From: Sorex araneus
Taxonomy: Eukaryota > Chordata > Mammalia > Eulipotyphla > Soricidae
Length of the DNA: 64,000 nucleotides
Reading direction: 5' to 3'
NCBI RefSeq assembly: GCF_027595985.1
Contig: NC_073313.1
Coordinates: 219,172,066-219,236,065 of the forward strand
The notes below the pieces were generated by a model, which was not told the DNA's origin, searched no databases, and saw only the letters and a program-made list of their open reading frames with translations. Both the position numbers and the translations under genes were made by a program. Below, piece by piece: positions 3,038-60,815 of the stretch; the first letter of the stretch is position 1; each line of letters starts with the position of its first letter.

Positions 3038-3432
3038 AACCCACAACCTGCCCCAGGTGCCGTGTAATCCTATCAATGGCCAAGATCCAGAGACTATAAA
3101 ACAAAGCTCCCGGAAGCGCACAGCCACATTTGCAGCCCCTCGACCTCTTATTGTCTAGTTCTCCCTCTCGGAGAACCCGGAAAGCTACAGAGTATCCTGC
3201 CCATTCAGCAGAGCCTGGCAAGCTCCCAGTGGCATATTCCATATGCCAAAAATAGTAACAATGATGGGTCTCATTCCCCTGACCCTGAAAGAGTCCCCAA
3301 TGTGGCACCTTTGGGAAGGACGAGTAAATAGAGGTTTTAGCCTTACAAAAATCTCAGGGCTAGGGCGAATGGAGACATTACTGAGACCACTCGAGCAGAT
3401 TGATGATCAACAGGATGACAGTGATGCAGTGA
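3038..3432 (+). mobile_element. Non-autonomous RTE-derived element, TSD-bounded (395 bp)
   Basis: Bounded by a 15-bp identical target-site duplication 'actaatacctatcaa' (3023-3037 and 3434-3448), so both ends are defined. In order it holds: 'ccgtgtaatcctatcaatgg'; a TATAAAA stretch at about 3095 ('agagactataaaacaaagctcc'-like); the 'gagaacccggaaagctac...gcctggcaagctccc' body shared with long SINEs; a segment 'gggtctcattcccctgaccctgaaa'; and the tail encoding ...RPLEQIDDQQDDSDAV in frame, which is the C-terminal end of the RTE at 36316-37915. Unlike the long SINEs it has no tRNA-type head. It matches the longer copy at 43499-44492 on the other strand along its whole length. Confidence 0.82.
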
Positions 3433-3470
3433 TACTAATACCTATCAACATTCTAAAATACTAATAATAG

Positions 3471-12877: not shown

Positions 12878-13127
12878 GGACTGGAGCGATAGCACAGTGG
12901 GTAGGGCATTTGCCTTGTACGTGGCCGACCTAGGTTCGATTCTTCTGTCCCTCTTGGAGAGCCCAGCAAACTACCAAGAGTATCTGCCTGCACAAGAGAG
13001 CCTGGCAAGCTACCTGTGGCATATTCGATATGCCAAAATCAGTAACAACAAATCACACGATGGAGATGTTACTGGTTCCCACACTAGCAAATCGATGAAC
13101 AATGAGACAACAGTGCTACAGTGCTAC
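12878..13127 (+). mobile_element. Long SOR-type SINE with RTE-derived tail
   Basis: tRNA-type head 'ggactggagcgatagcaca' with a perfect box B 'ggttcgattc', then the long-form body 'gagagcccagcaaactacc', 'gcctggcaagctacctgtggcatattc' and the tail 'gatggagatgttactgg...cgatgaacaatgagacaacagtgctacagtg'. TSD 'ataatgaga' at 12869-12877 and 13128-13136. This form ends in RTE C-terminal codons instead of an A tail. Confidence 0.92.
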
Positions 13128-15615: not shown

Positions 15616-15898
15616 TATTTTATCACAAATTTCTTACTTTTTTTAGGACAGAAAACTATTTGTTAGTGATCTGGTTATGACTTATTTATTTTGCAAATGT
15701 ACAAAATAAAAATCTTAGTGAGATTTTGTATTTATATAGTTCCAATAAAATTTATAGTGGCCCAAATTTTAGAGATTTTCTCCTAGGAAACTGAATGACA
15801 TAACTGTCCCACCCAACTATTTTATTAAAATTGTAATTACACAACATAAGATTTTTTAAGATGTAAACTTAAATATAATTGTTTTATATATTATCTTA

Positions 15899-16147
15899 GC
15901 ACTGTACCACTGTCGTCCCGTTGTTCATCGATTTGCTCAAGTGGGCATCAGTAGCGTCTCCATTGTGAGACTTGTTGTTACTGTTTTTGGCATATCAAAT
16001 ATGCCACGGGTAGCTTGCCAGGCTCTGCCGTGCAGGCGGGATACTCTCGGTAGCTTGTCGGGCTCTCTGAGAGGGACGGAGGAATCAAACCTGGGTTGTC
16101 TGTGTGTATGGCAAACTCCCTAACCACTGTGTTATCACTCCAGTCCG
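15899..16147 (-). mobile_element. Long SOR-type SINE with RTE-derived tail
   Basis: Complete copy. TSD 'tatattatctta' (15887-15898) and 'tatatcatctta' (16148-16159), one difference. The plus strand opens with the tail complement 'gcactgtaccactgtcgtcc'. On the minus strand the tail reads Q-W-R-R-Y-stop-C-P-L-E-Q-I-D-E-Q-R-D-D, the RTE C-terminus with one stop. It ends at the head complement 'gttatcactccagtcc'. Confidence 0.95.
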
Positions 16148-17689: not shown

Positions 17690-18095
17690 ATGGTCAAAGA
17701 TATGTTACAGAATATAAGGCATATAGCTGACCCCAGTTGATTCCCAAAATAGCACTGCACTGTTGCACTGTCATTCCACTGTTTATCAAATTGCTCTAGT
17801 GGGCACCAGTAACGTCTCCATTGTGAGACTTGCTTTTACTGCTTTTGGCATATCGAATATGCCACAGGTAGCTTGCCAGGCTCTGCCTTGGGGGTGGCAT
17901 ACTCTAGGTAGTTTTCTGGGCTCTCCGAGAGGGATGGAGGAATTGAACCTGGGTCTGTTGCATGCAAGGCAAACACCCTACCTGCTGTGCTCCAGTGCGA
18001 GTCCCAAAATACAGAAAATAATCCCTTGAGCTCAACCAGGGTCATCCTAGGCACAGAACCAGGAGTAGTCACTGAGCACTGCTCCCAAGCAAATA
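17690..18095 (+). mobile_element. Old SOR-type SINE split by a younger long SINE
   Basis: The left half (17690-17751) has 'aaggcatatagctgaccccagttgattcccaaaat'. The right half (18002-18095) resumes with 'cccaaaatacag...cccttgagctcaaccagggtcatcctaggcacagaaccaggagtagtcactgag'. The two halves join at the 10-bp TSD of the insert. Confidence 0.6.
17752..18001 (-). mobile_element. Long SOR-type SINE nested in an older SINE
   Basis: Perfect 10-bp TSD 'tcccaaaata' at 17742-17751 and 18002-18011. Contains the RTE-tail complement 'ttgcactgtcattccactg', body 'gccacaggtagcttgccaggctctgcc', box B complement 'gaattgaacctggg' and a rearranged head end 'gtgctccagtgcgag'. Confidence 0.92.
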
Positions 18096-36315: not shown

Positions 36316-37915
36316 CATCACTTGTATCACTTGTATCACTTATCTGGTTGTTCATCAAGTTGCTCAAGCGGGCATCTGTAACGTCACCATTCATCCCTGT
36401 CGCATGCTAATGTAGCCCAATGGTGTCTGCTCCTTCCTGAATACGAAGAGCCTCAACATTTAATTCAAAGTTTTGACAAAGAAGTCTGATCATCTTGTAG
36501 GTGGGAGGCCAGGCATTCTTTTGACATCCCGTGGAATTCAGTTGGCAACAACTCTAGTCCAGTGGTCATCTCTAAATCTCATTACGTGTCTGGCCATCTG
36601 ATTTTTGATGCCATGGCAAATGAGACAGCATCCCTAATTCTTGATTGTTGACGGAGGTCGGAACTCCAGATTTCTTCTTTCACTTGAGTGAAACATGATA
36701 TTCCAATTCCAATTATAGCTCTTTCAATTCCTCTTTGGGATACCTGAATAGTGTTCTCGTCCTGTTTTTGTAGGGCCCAGGTCTCTGAGGCATATATTTG
36801 TACAGGAAGAATGGTGGAGTCGAAAAGATGTGCCTGGAGCCAGAGGTTCTTCATCCTCTTAACCACTTCTTTGACACTCTTGAAGGCATCCCATGCTGCT
36901 TTCTTCTCCTTGTGCAGTTCAGGTGCCAGGTCGTTTATCATGTTGAGTTCTCGACCCAGGTACACATAACTGCTGCATACGGAGATGTTTGTTCTGTTGA
37001 GGACAAATGGAACATTAGGAACTACTCCATTTCTTATGAACATTGTGTTTGTGAGATTCAGTAGCAGTCCAACTTTTCCACACTTGTGGTCGAAGTCTGC
37101 TAGGATTCGTGCCACTTGGCTGATATTTGGTGTTATTAGAGCGATGTCACAGCGAAGCAGAAGTGGTGTTGTTGCCGACTGTCTATCTTTCCATTCCTTC
37201 CCATTCCAGTCATTGCATAATGTTCTCGAAAATGTCACTGAAGAGTTTTGGTGAAATGTTGTCATCCTGCCAAAACCCTCTCTTTACGTCTATGATGGCT
37301 TCTATGTAGAATGATGAGATCCTGGTGGTGAATCCATAATCCAGCTCATGGAGGATCCTGGTGTACTGAGTTTGAATGCGTATTTGGCTAGTGCTTCGAT
37401 GACTGCTTCAGTCTCAACAGAATCAAAGGCCTTCTTTAAGTCGATGAATGTTAGACAGAGCAGCATCTTGAACTCTCATGAAACCTCACTGAGATTTGTC
37501 ACCATGTGGAAATGGTCGATCTTGCTGAATCCTTTTTGGAACCTGGCTTGCTCTCACGGTTGTCCTTTGTCTAGTGTTCTGCCAATCCTATTCAGGATGA
37601 CTCAAGTGAATAACTTATAGACGACAGACAACAGGCAGCTTGTGTGATAGTTGGCAATGTTGTGGATGTCTCCCTTTTTGTACAACAGAACAGTCCTGCT
37701 AATTTTCCATTGGAACAGAATGTTGCATTCAGACAGGTAGCATGTGAAGAGCTAAGCCAGTATATTCACGAGTACTAGTGGCAGATTCTTCAGGTGTTCG
37801 GTTCTGACTTTGTCTGGACTGGGTATGACACGCTTCTTTACTGATGAAATGGTGTGTTGGATTTTGGAAGGGAGGACTTTGGGAACAACATAACCATCCT
37901 GAAGAACTTAATATG
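36316..37915 (-). mobile_element. 5'-truncated RTE-type LINE, nematode RTE-like, decayed
   Basis: Read on the minus strand it encodes, with frame breaks, the RT and C-terminal part of an RTE-clade protein. Order: 'LYKKGDIHNIANYHTSCLLS' (37625-37690), 'FIDLKKAFDSVETEAV' (RT motif A, about 37390-37445), 'ISPKLFSDIFENIM' (after motif B, about 37210-37255), then 'LRCDIALITPNISQVARIL' where the FADD box should be. Next come 'TNISVCSSYVYLGRELNM', 'IYASETWALQKQDEN', 'RQQSRIRDAVSFAMASKIRW' and, after a frameshift, a WAGHVMR-like segment. The end is 'HWATLACDRDEW' and 'RYRCPLEQLDEQPDK' followed by a stop and a short 'gatacaagt' tandem tail at 36316-36340. The APE endonuclease domain is absent. These motifs are, from memory, those of RTE elements common in strongylid nematodes and of the shrew RTE reported as horizontally transferred. 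BovB is a different RTE lineage. Confidence 0.9.
36582..37265 (-). pseudogene. Longest surviving open stretch of the RTE reverse transcriptase ORF
   Basis: 227 codons with no stop, but not a functional gene. Its first 25-30 residues are out of the ancestral frame. The catalytic [FY]ADD box at about 37133-37165 is reduced to R-C-D by a 6-bp loss, and the frame runs into a stop after '...KIRWPDT'. The later C-terminal part (to 36345) continues in another frame. It is the decayed remnant of the RTE protein, which would have nicked DNA and reverse-transcribed its own RNA. Confidence 0.85.
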
Positions 37916-37929
37916 TGGCAGGTGGTAGT

Positions 37930-41761: not shown

Positions 41762-41996
41762 TAGCACTGTAGCACTGTCATCCCGCTGTTCATCGATTTG
41801 CTCGAGAGGGCACCAGTAGCGGCTCCACTGTGGGACTTGTTACTGTTTTTGGAGTATCAAATATGCCACAGGTAGCTTGCCAGGCTCTGCCGTGCAGGCG
41901 GGATAATCTTGGTAGCTTTCTGGGTTCTCTGAGAGGGGTGGGGGAATCAAACCCGAGTCAGCCATATGCAAGGCAAATGCCCTACCCACTGTGCTA
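41762..41996 (-). mobile_element. Long SOR-type SINE with RTE-derived tail
   Basis: Tail complement 'gtagcactgtagcactgtcatcccgctg', body 'gccacaggtagcttgccaggctctgccgtgcaggcggga', box B complement 'ggaatcaaacccg', ending 'ccactgtgctatgaa' so the last head bases are missing. No clear TSD found. Confidence 0.9.
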
Positions 41997-41999
41997 TGA

Positions 42000-43498: not shown

Positions 43499-44492
43499 TT
43501 ATCACTGTATCACTGTCATCCCCTTGTTTGTCGATTTACTCGAGCAAGCACCAGTAATGTCTCAATTACACTCAGCCTGAGATTTTAGCAGCCTCTCCTT
43601 GCTCGTCTTTCCCAACTATTGGAGGCTTTTTCAGGATCAGGGGAATGAGACCTATCGTTATTGTTTTTGGCATATAGAATTTGCCACGGGTAGCTTGCCA
43701 GGCTCTGCTGTGTGGGCGGGATACTCTTGGTAGCTTGCCGGGCTCGCCAAGAGGTATGTATATATCTGTTATTATATTTGGGATATGAATACTCCACGGG
43801 GAGCTTGCTAGACTCTCCCATGCGGGCAATAGACTCTCGGTAGCTTCTCAGGTTCTCCATGAGGGAGAACTAGGCTACTAGATGTCTCGTGGCCGAATTG
43901 TGGCCGCTCACTTCCAGGAGCCTGGTTTTATAGTCTCTGGATGTTGGCTATTGATGGGATTACACGGCATAGGGGGGCAGTTTCTGGGTATGACTGCCAA
44001 GCTACTGGAAAATGGGGGGTCTGGGTGGAAGAGGCCCAGTCCCAATCCGAGCAGTCTTGAAGATTTTGTTCCCTGGTCTCACACACCTGGTTCCTCTGCC
44101 AGTTCCTTCATGCATGAGGCTCATCCGAACGTGTGGAGAGTGGCCTTGAGCATGGCTGTGACTGGGTTCTGGAGGTCTTCAACTGTTGAGGCTCTGCTCA
44201 GGGTGGAGGGGCTGGGGGTTGGCGGCCGTTCACTGAGTCAAGATGCTGTGGAATCTGATGCCTCTTCATCAGATTACCCAGAGGACCATAAGTACTGCTT
44301 CCCGCAGACAGTTTGAAAATAAGGTTCCTGAGAAACAGAAGCTGTTTCAGTAGGATAATGGAATTCCAGTGCATCTAAAGGGTGCGGTGTCTGATGCCCT
44401 CCTGTATAGAGCCACTACGATTCTTACAGTTGGTAGAACAGCATATGCCATACATCAGCTGTTATGGCTTCGTTTCCCAGGAAGCAGGATTG
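43499..44492 (-). mobile_element. Longest non-autonomous RTE-derived element, TSD-bounded (994 bp)
   Basis: Perfect 10-bp TSD 'actattacat' (43489-43498 and 44493-44502). Order on the minus strand: a 5' module (44492 down to about 44213) not seen elsewhere in the window; the module shared with 6480-6672 (44212-44023); 'ccgtgtaatcccatcaatag' and 'agagactataaaaccagg' shared with 3038-3120; two rounds of the 'gagaacctgagaagctacc...gcaagct' body; the 'gtctcattcccctgatcctgaaaa' segment; and the RTE C-terminal tail with repeated 'acagtgat'. It carries no RT codons apart from that tail. The 144-codon plus-strand frame at 43882 is a shadow. Confidence 0.8.
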
Positions 44493-49170: not shown

Positions 49171-49182
49171 GTTAATATAGTA

Positions 49183-49436
49183 GCACTGGCTGTAGCCCTG
49201 TCGCCCTGTTGTTCATCAATTTGCTCCAGTGGTCACCAGTAATGTGTCCATTGTGAGACTTGTTGTTACTGTTTTTGGCATATTGAATATGCTTCAGATA
49301 GCTTGCAAGGCTCTGCTGTGCGGGCGGGATACTCTTGATAGCTTGCCGGGCTCTCTCAGAGGGACAGAGGAACAGAACCCGGGTTGGCTGCGTGCAAGGT
49401 AAATGCCCCACCCCACTGTGCTATTGATCCATCCTA
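49183..49436 (-). mobile_element. Long SOR-type SINE with RTE-derived tail
   Basis: TSD 'ttaatatagta' (49172-49182) and 'ttagtatagta' (49437-49447). Tail complement 'gccctgtcgccctgttgttcatcaatttgctccag', body, box B complement 'ggaacagaaccc', head end 'gctattgatccatcc'. Confidence 0.95.
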
Positions 49437-50735: not shown

Positions 50736-50980
50736 ACTGTCACTGTCATCCTGTTGCTCATCGATTTACTCGAGCGGGCATGAGTAATGTCTCCATTGTG
50801 AGAGTTGTTGTTACTAGTTTTGGCATATCGAATACACCAGGACTAGCTTGCCAGGCTCTGCTGTACCGACTAGATACTCTCGGTAGTTTGCCGAGCTCTC
50901 TGAGAGGGGCGGAGGAATCAAATCCAGGTCAGCTGTGTGCAAGGCAAGCGCCCTACCCACTGTACTATCGCTCCAGCCCA
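50736..50980 (-). mobile_element. Long SOR-type SINE with RTE-derived tail
   Basis: TSD 'caaataaaaat' (50724-50734 and 50981-50991). Opens 'actgtcactgtcatcctgttgctcatcgatttactcgagc', body 'ccaggactagcttgccaggctctgctg', head end 'tactatcgctccagccca'. Confidence 0.95.
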
Positions 50981-54240: not shown

Positions 54241-54345
54241 AAAAAGTACATTCAATGGAAGGGAATGATTGAGGACATTTTTTTACAGAATATCTACTAA
54301 GATAGTTTATATTTTAATTTTTTAAATTATAATGCAAACACTATA

Positions 54346-54555
54346 GGACTATAAAACAAAGCTCCAGGAAGAGAGTGATACAGAATGTCGCATGGCGAAG
54401 CCTGGCAAGCTACCCGTGGCATATTTGAGATGCCAAAAACAGTACCAATAATGGGCCTCATTTCCCTTACTCTGAACAATACAGAGATGAATGGAGACAT
54501 TACTGGTGCTCACCTGAGCAAAATCGATGAACAACGGGACAACAGTAATACAGTG
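54346..54555 (+). mobile_element. Non-autonomous RTE-derived element, TSD-bounded (210 bp)
   Basis: TSD 'aatgcaaacactata' (54331-54345) and 'aatgaaaacactata' (54556-54570), one difference. It starts at 'ggactataaaacaaagctcc', i.e. at the TATAAAA site of the 3038 copy, skips most of the body, then has 'gcctggcaagctacccgtggcatatt', 'gggcctcatttcccttactctgaa' and the RTE tail 'cgatgaacaacgggacaacagtaatacagtg'. Confidence 0.83.
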
Positions 54556-54759
54556 AATGAAAACACTATATCAAACAAAAAATATGGAATGTATAGTTTT
54601 AGTACCAACAGGCTTCAAAAGAATTTTTTTAACCATTAAATGTATTTAGTAAGTAGGGCAGTGTCATCAAATAAGAGTTTTTCCAAGTATTCTTTAATAT
54701 ATCTCTCTGTATAAGAACTTTGTATTTAATAACTTTTTTCCATTTTTAAAATTTATATT

Positions 54760-57178: not shown

Positions 57179-57192
57179 GACTTTCTATTGTC

Positions 57193-57436
57193 ACTGCCAC
57201 TGTCATCCCGTTGCTCATCGATTTGTTTGAGCAGGCACCAGTAATGTCTCTCATTGTGAGACTTATTGTTACTGTTTTTGGCATATCGAATACACCACGG
57301 GTAGCTTGCCAGGCTCTGCCACACAGGCGCAATACTCTCGGTAGCTTGCTGGGCTCTCCGAGAGGGGCAACAGAATCAAACACGGATCGGCTGCGTGAAA
57401 GGCGAAAGTCCTACCCCTGTGCTATCACTCCATCCC
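57193..57436 (-). mobile_element. Long SOR-type SINE with RTE-derived tail, complete
   Basis: Perfect 12-bp TSD 'ctttctattgtc' (57181-57192, 57437-57448). Tail complement 'actgccactgtcatcccgttgctcatcgatttg', body 'ccacgggtagcttgccaggctctgcc', 'gctctccgagaggggc', box B complement 'gaatcaaacac', head end 'gctatcactccatcccc'. Confidence 0.96.
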
Positions 57437-60577: not shown

Positions 60578-60815
60578 TAATGATACAGAAGGTAGGGCAT
60601 TTTCCTTGCACGCGGCTGACCCTGGGTTTGATTCCTCCATTCCTCTCGGAGAGCCCAGCAAGTTACCGAGAGTATCCTGCCCACACAGCAGAGCCTGGCA
60701 AGCTACCCGTGGCGTATTTCATATGCCAAAAACAGTAACAAGTTTCACAATGGAGACGTTACTGGTGCCCGCTCAAGCAAATCGATAAACAATGGAACTA
60801 CAGTGCTACAGTGCA
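60578..60815 (+). mobile_element. Long SOR-type SINE with RTE-derived tail, head truncated
   Basis: Starts within the head ('gatacagaaggtagggcattttccttgcacgcggctgacc'), box B 'ggtttgattcc', body 'ctctcggagagcccagcaag' and 'gcctggcaagctacccgtggcg', then tail codons Q-W-R-R-Y-W-C-P-L-K-Q-I-D-K-Q. Ends with 'tacagtgctacagtgcagtg'. Confidence 0.92.

Follow-up and report, generated by a model that had tools for sequence, protein, structure and literature searches.

A long SINE of Sorex araneus ends in the last codons of an RTE LINE, which probably encode an RNA stem

Long interspersed elements (LINEs) of the stringent type require a 3' tail (PMC4176376; PMC3747384). The elements listed in Table 1 of PMC3747384 include Bov-tA, Bov-A2, MAR4, RTESINE1 and RTE1-N1_LA, which are transfer RNA (tRNA) short interspersed elements (SINEs) with RTE tails or tRNA-less derivatives made of a 5' plus a 3' part. 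In LINEs of the RTE clade unusually short, repeat-rich 3' untranslated regions (UTRs) are typical (PMC1291365), and the RTE element RTE1_Sar has been reported from the shrew Sorex araneus as well as from nine parasitic nematodes, with the argument that nematodes were the source of a horizontal transfer (PMC6542046). Here, a stretch of 64,000 nucleotides of the S. araneus genome (contig NC_073313.1, positions 219,172,066 to 219,236,065, forward strand), referred to as the window, was analysed that contains a decayed RTE LINE copy together with long SINEs, a SINE/RTE pair that is absent from the Table 1 passage of PMC3747384. The last roughly 60 bases of the RTE copy recur as the 3' end in all eight long SINEs and in the three tRNA-less derivatives of the window. 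In the RTE these bases are coding, and an RNA stem is probably written into the same codons.

Comparison of the window RTE copy with a long RTE copy, L039, by blastn resulted in 81% identity over 1621 aligned bases. The reverse transcriptase (RT) domain PF00078 (RVT_1) was matched in the window copy at E 7.5e-9, X having been entered at stops, and in the open reading frame (ORF) of L039 at E 5.1e-26. The AP-like endonuclease (EN) domain PF03372 was matched in the 5' part of L039 at E 3.3e-7, with X entered at one stop, and is missing from the window copy. With RT, AP-like EN and a very short 3' UTR made of repeats all present, the element is a LINE of the RTE clade.

In the initial annotation the window copy had been read as ending in W, a stop, RYRCPLEQLDEQPDK and a further stop, and the same reading was recovered from 36333-36391 (-), which translates as W, stop, RYRCPLEQLDEQPDK, stop, Y. 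A consensus was then derived from the 3' ends of 30 RTE loci chosen by C-terminal protein similarity, the window copy (L009) among them. The samples are biased in that L009-L038 were picked by similarity to the window copy and L049-L059, used below for the 5' end, by similarity to L039. The last codons of the consensus are TGG CGC CCG CTC GAG CAA ATC GAA GAT CAA CGG GAT GAC AAG TGA, where the stop TGA lies within the first AAGTGATAC repeat. Stop-to-stop ORFs reach this stop in L039 (768 codons), L041 (590) and L042 (510), the other RTE copies being broken. As the stop codon is found inside the first tail repeat, the RTE segment shared with the SINEs is coding and the 3' UTR is, by consensus, the repeat alone, which upholds the earlier claim that the shared tail is coding sequence and not 3' UTR. 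A coding tail was already implied in principle by the short, repeat-rich 3' UTRs typical of the clade.

The window was scanned with the SINE-type tail at a score threshold of 46. This resulted in 12 sites, namely the RTE, eight long SINEs and three tRNA-less derivatives (see the table below), with scores of 76–98, and the top scores in six base-shuffled control windows were 24–29. Chance similarity was ruled out, as scores of 76–98 stand against 29 at most in the shuffled windows and the consensus scores given below are far above those of 500 shuffles each. The tails of the long SINEs had been said to read (E/Q)WRRYWCPLEQIDEQRDDS in the RTE frame; this is true as a consensus reading, seen in the majority of copies with private changes. 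The tail at 15904-15964 translates as WRRY, a stop and CPLEQIDEQRDDSG and that at 60749-60809 as WRRYWCPLKQIDKQWNYSA, and the tail at 57198-57255 is frameshifted by an indel.

The shared end was further evaluated in a wider set of 42 RTE 3' ends, from which an end was excluded, uncounted, if fewer than 25 bases aligned upstream or fewer than 40 in the shared part, and in 18 long SINEs (the 8 window copies and 10 from other genomic loci). The boundary was sharp, starting at AATGGAGA, one of the points that the initial annotation had proposed to check. The tandem tails, in contrast, which had been expected to be the same, were related and not identical. All 42 RTE ends have the 9-bp AAGTGATAC unit, complete, partial or decayed, and none has ACAGTG, whereas ACAGTG directly follows the shared codons in 17 of the 18 long SINEs (ACAGGG in the remaining one), in units of 8 or 6 bp. 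In a comparison made among RTE copies, with no dedicated search of other LINE families, L002 (96%) was closest to the SINE tail, followed by L003, L007 and L038 (94%). Clear target site duplications (TSDs) of 9–13 bp were observed for 9 of the 18 long SINEs, at, or within about 2 bases of, the SINE head (or truncated head) and the tail repeat, and were unclear or lacking for the other 9, a count made without a chance control. Divergence from the consensus outside CpG was 5–11% across the 18 copies.

Relatives of the RTE were sought among proteins with its RT and C-terminal part as query. The search matched 859 proteins; the following figures are from the best 120 of these. The top two matches were at 76%, and the first named matches included Necator americanus (73%), Haemonchus contortus (74%), Ancylostoma ceylanicum (71%) and Nippostrongylus brasiliensis (71%). 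These named strongylid matches, at 71–74%, covered 99% of the query region, and a second group was found at about 48%. Two Sorex fumeus proteins (P0126 and P0130) belong to the same RTE family, and nematode proteins of the family have similar C-termini, for example EWRRYWRPLEQIDDQRDDR in N. brasiliensis. The presence of EN and RT, the strongylids Necator, Haemonchus, Ancylostoma and Nippostrongylus as best named relatives and the family members in Sorex fumeus are points of likeness to RTE1_Sar, and the RTE, matched by host and relatives, is very probably RTE1_Sar. The main text of the RTE1_Sar account makes no mention of SINE, UTR, tail, tandem or non-autonomous (PMC6542046). Given the published direction of transfer, from nematode to shrew, the tail would have been coding before the shrew acquired the RTE. 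Four nematode protein models (P0122, P0123, P0124 and P0115) matched the RTE and carried other domains (for example ANF_receptor PF01094 and PF00501), as gene insertions or through misannotation.

The shared stretch can pair as CCCG C UCGA, a loop of 5 nt, UCGA, 7 nt and CGGG, that is, as an outer and an inner stem. In the protein set the tail motif was present in 70 of 166 proteins, and in 69 of these 70 the codons for residues L+1 and L+3 have complementary middle bases: A/T in 59, G/C in 9 (the GxP of Ancylostoma) and T/A in one (P0144, VxH), while one protein (P0040) has A with an ambiguous Ser. At the level of residues, E or D at L+1 occurs with I, L, V or F at L+3, G with P, and V with H. 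The L+1 codon was GNN in 67 of 67, in accordance with what the stem demands at its third base. Residue pairs were ranked over the last 18 residues of 30 distinct peptides, considering pairs at least 2 apart with at least 2 pair types and excluding neighbours and invariant pairs. Among the ranked pairs, L+1/L+3 alone paired throughout (29 of 29 decidable) and alone showed three types. This pair had been selected for the test after the Ancylostoma case, and the V/H case came from a later search.

At the nucleotide level, the bases of Necator, Haemonchus and Ancylostoma were deduced by combining protein models in which the stretch is translated in different frames, near-identical copies being assumed. 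The two runs with two readings agree; the run with three Necator readings has no solution, one reading likely being misplaced. The stems were kept in the inferred bases of all three, in Ancylostoma as UCGG...CCGA with equal loop length (4-bp stem, 5-nt loop). Sliding the stem partners by 1–3 columns in a 5-row nucleotide alignment lowered the paired cells from 100% to 20–55%. In folding of 149-base RTE 3' ends the stem bases pair with a probability of at least 0.9, apart from a single pair in the young form, for which it is 0.58.

Several results weigh against the stem. The next-ranked residue pair, which is unconnected, reached 24 of 29 (83%) with two types from relatedness alone, and the V/H case is a single protein, P0144. 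As the proteins are related, the pairing evidence amounts to two independent double changes and not ten. Covariation counted over the 5-row nucleotide alignment was not significant, 110 of 500 shuffles reaching it, and single-sequence folding energies were ordinary (z from -1.2 to +1.0) and gave no support for a hairpin. For the tail inferred for Ancylostoma, the inner stem is absent from the fold of lowest energy, and in the consensus of the whole SINE competing pairings leave the outer stem with a probability near 0 and the inner with about 0.4–0.5. On account of the null folding and covariation results, the claim of a hairpin rests on the protein set, from which we conclude that the codons in common probably also specify a stem in the RNA.

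The long SINE holds more of the RTE than the tail alone. In the consensus of the 18 copies, positions 1–66 correspond to the head of the SOR SINE, with 60 of 66 bases identical to the consensus of 21 window SOR copies, and the match stops at GATTCC. A B-box-like GGTTYGATTCC was seen in this head. Positions 65–175 correspond to the RTE 5' ORF region (103/111 identical to a consensus of 11 copies) and positions 183–250 to the RTE 3' end (62/68 identical to the RTE 3' consensus). The two RTE pieces matched with scores of 91 and 47, whereas the best of 500 shuffles for each reached 15.5 and 13. By sequence match, the segment upstream of the tail is likewise RTE, from the 5' ORF region. The joint between the two pieces, GTCTCACAATGGAGAC (consensus 176–191), holds a 5-bp inverted repeat.

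In the RTE itself, the 5' region of L046 adjoins the body directly and in its natural orientation. In 11 loci (L049-L059) the 5' region runs on into the beginning of the endonuclease ORF, the query having spanned both parts. Its frame leads into the endonuclease as ...KTKMIVCTFNARTL, the majority consensus having a single in-frame stop, and the upstream part of L045 is free of stops up to the point where this copy leaves the alignment. Most of the RTE-derived SINE sequence is probably of coding origin, taken from the two ends of the ORF, with less assurance for the 5' part. Other arrangements of the RTE were also observed. The 5' parts are inverted beside the bodies in L039 (2320-1357 (-), body from 2312) and L044 (2961-2231 (-), body from 2963); twin-priming inversions are known from L1, and these inverted parts resemble them. 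A stretch of the 5' leader occurs twice in L045 (542-583 and 794-835), about 250 bases apart, and the leader may consist of tandem units. A SOR SINE occupies an identical site of the RTE 3' coding region in L017 and L023, on different contigs; either an RTE-SOR composite was copied or both insertions used a common target.

The tRNA-less family comprises the three window elements and nine more copies (L061-L069), L060 being a window copy. In 10 aligned copies, one of them from the window, the RTE 5' region is fused to the RTE 3' end without a tRNA head, with the joint near TCTCAGGGC, followed by GAATGGAGAC. The stretch upstream of TCCCTCTCGG gave no alignment to the RTE 5' sequences compared. 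All 10 copies have the ACAGTG-type tail of the SINE or a near variant. CCAAAAA(C/T)AG is common to the tRNA-less copies, the long SINE (as CCAAAAACAG) and the RTE copies L046 and L047, whereas all 11 RTE 5' ends of L049-L059 have CCAACAACAG, unlike the SINE. The simplest order would lead from the RTE to the tRNA-less derivative and from there to fusion with the SOR head. In one window derivative, on the minus strand, the doubled 5' unit lies at 43866-43767 and 43754-43646.

If the density of 8 long SINEs in 64 kb held throughout 2.4 Gb, there would be about 300,000 copies, a guess based on a single window. A first look gave 32,056 candidates for the RTE protein and 11,091 for the tRNA-less family, which are candidate counts and not copy numbers.

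Table. Positions of the RTE copy, long SINEs and tRNA-less derivatives in the window.
Feature	Position	Strand	Remarks
5'-truncated, decayed RTE LINE copy (RT and C-terminal part)	36316..37925	-	blastn to L039; RVT_1 match
RTE 3' end common with SINEs (last codons, stop, first part of tandem repeat)	36333..36391	-	51/59 aligned bases equal to SINE-type tail
Long SINE	12878..13126	+	RTE 5' piece from 12944, RTE tail from about 13059; TSD ATAATGAGA
Long SINE	15897..16146	-	RTE 5' piece from 16080, RTE tail from 15964; TSD TAAGATGATATA/TAAGATAATATA
Long SINE	17757..18004	-	RTE 5' piece from 17938, RTE tail from 17822
Long SINE, head start missing	41762..41997	-	RTE 5' piece from 41942, RTE tail from about 41829
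Long SINE	49181..49434	-	RTE 5' piece from 49368, RTE tail from 49252
Long SINE	50736..50979	-	RTE 5' piece from 50913, RTE tail from 50797; TSD ATTTTTATTTG
Long SINE	57192..57435	-	RTE 5' piece from 57371, RTE tail from 57255; TSD GACAATAGAAAG
Long SINE, head start missing	60585..60814	+	RTE 5' piece from 60636, RTE tail from 60749
tRNA-less derivative, RTE-type 5' region and RTE tail	3060..3434	+	tail 3368-3425; 5' limit provisional; related copies elsewhere in genome
tRNA-less derivative, doubled 5' unit	43499..43950	-	tail 43507-43567; 5' end approximate
tRNA-less derivative, shorter middle	54320..54556	+	tail 54490-54551; 5' end approximate

The following course of events is proposed. An RTE without its interior, in which the 5' ORF region was joined to the last codons, would have given rise to the tRNA-less family. 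The two RTE pieces, with a smaller middle, would then have been joined to the end of the tRNA-derived head taken from the SOR SINE, a resident element, resulting in the long SINE. The SOR head would supply an RNA polymerase III (Pol III) promoter, and the SINE 3' end would retain about 18 of the last RTE codons plus the tail repeat. In RNA these codons may fold to a hairpin, with CCCG...CGGG around UCGA-5 nt loop-UCGA, to which the RTE protein would bind and begin target-primed reverse transcription on the adjoining repeats. The SINE RNA would present the same hairpin and a similar repeat to this protein. The mechanism is modelled on the stringent LINE type, and recognition of the hairpin is the best-supported reading.

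We consider it likely that the long SINE is a non-autonomous partner of the RTE LINE, whose protein would recognise the codon-borne hairpin. The initial annotation had named the RTE as the likely mobiliser of the long SINE, an interpretation that the shared coding 3' end supports, mobilisation in trans being what the sequences suggest. With somewhat less assurance, we favour the broader reading that an RNA element for template choice is written into the last codons of the RTE. Selection on the stem would then dictate C-terminal residues, with E/I, G/P and V/H as compensated pairs, and a SINE would arise by capture of coding sequence, here a shrew SINE from a LINE acquired from nematodes.

Against the pairing of this SINE with this RTE stand the differing tail repeats, ACAAGTG-type in the RTE and ACAGTG-type in the SINE, on account of which the true partner could be an unsampled RTE subfamily. 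Mobilisation of the SINE and the tRNA-less family by such a close subfamily, with an ACAGTG-type repeat, is an unlikely explanation that nevertheless deserves weight. It would account for the ACAGTG that follows the shared codons in the SINEs and tRNA-less copies and in none of the RTE ends, as well as for the SINE motif CCAAAAACAG being matched in L046 and L047 and not in the 11 other RTE 5' ends. No RTE with an ACAGTG-type repeat was found, however, among the 42 RTE 3' ends, a biased sample, and published RTE/SINE pairs may differ in repeat, as described for anole Bov-B with (CGA)n and the Sauria SINE with (ACCTTT)n (PMC13295347). The coupled tail residues might instead reflect a protein contact or shared descent, the C-terminus being kept for the protein alone, since the stretch is translated and well conserved in nematodes and the proteins are related, with just two double changes. 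We regard this as rather improbable. Swaps between E/D-I/L/V/F, G-P and V-H are implausible as a contact and yet give A-U, G-C and U-A at the middle codon bases. The constant GNN at L+1 is what a stem needs, the inferred Ancylostoma bases permit one of 4 bp with a 5-nt loop, and the SINE retains the tail sequence though making no protein.

Other routes for the SINE itself appear far more remote. A-rich tails are typical of L1-driven SINEs, and the short SOR form, which depends on L1 and has the same head as the long SINE, has such a tail. The long SINE could accordingly be moved by L1, the RTE tail being a relic, but in the 9 clear cases it ends in the RTE-like repeat beside the TSD, without poly(A), and we think this very doubtful. 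At least as doubtful is arrival of the SINE ready-made from a nematode along with the RTE, for which the reported horizontal transfer of RTE1_Sar between nematodes and shrew (PMC6542046) would offer a route. The long SINE has its head in common with the resident SOR SINE, up to and including GATTCC, and from this origin of the head the simplest course places the fusion within the shrew lineage. A partnership of the long SINE with the RTE thus remains the preferred explanation.

No description of this SINE/RTE pair was found in the searches made of an open-licence library, Repbase, Dfam and most subscription journals lying outside the search. Within the limits of these searches, the pair is new, and so are the derivation of the SINE from two parts of the RTE and, most of all, the stem that covaries in the last codons. 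The pair offers a clear example of how the head of a resident SINE may come to use the machinery of a LINE for which horizontal acquisition has been reported, and this acquisition sets an upper age limit for the SINE. The SOR SINE, a shrew element, has the same tRNA-derived head as the long SINE and differs in having its own body and an A-rich tail.

The pair resembles Bov-tA/Bov-B of ruminants in its tRNA head, its RTE-clade tail and a LINE reported as horizontally acquired (PMC13295347). It differs in the tRNA and the RTE involved, and the tail of the shrew SINE extends to the stop codon and is accompanied by a piece of the LINE 5' ORF, as set against the description in PMC3747384. Bov-A2, MAR4, RTESINE1 and RTE1-N1_LA combine a LINE 5' end with a LINE 3' end, as do the shrew tRNA-less derivatives, in other hosts and from other LINEs, the comparison being by table description only (PMC3747384). 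In the stringent LINEs ZfL2-1, ZfL2-2 and UnaL2 a 3' RNA stem-loop is recognised by the LINE protein and the tail is common with partner SINEs. The tail of ZfL2-1 and ZfL2-2 is described as lying in the 3' UTR (PMC4176376), whereas the stem proposed for the shrew RTE lies in codons. The SINE/LINE pairs of the works cited are explained by a shared 3' tail, with 3' UTR structure in the tested cases. In the shrew pair the shared structure would sit in codons, and recognition by the RTE could therefore be tested by means of compensated codon pairs and synonymous changes.
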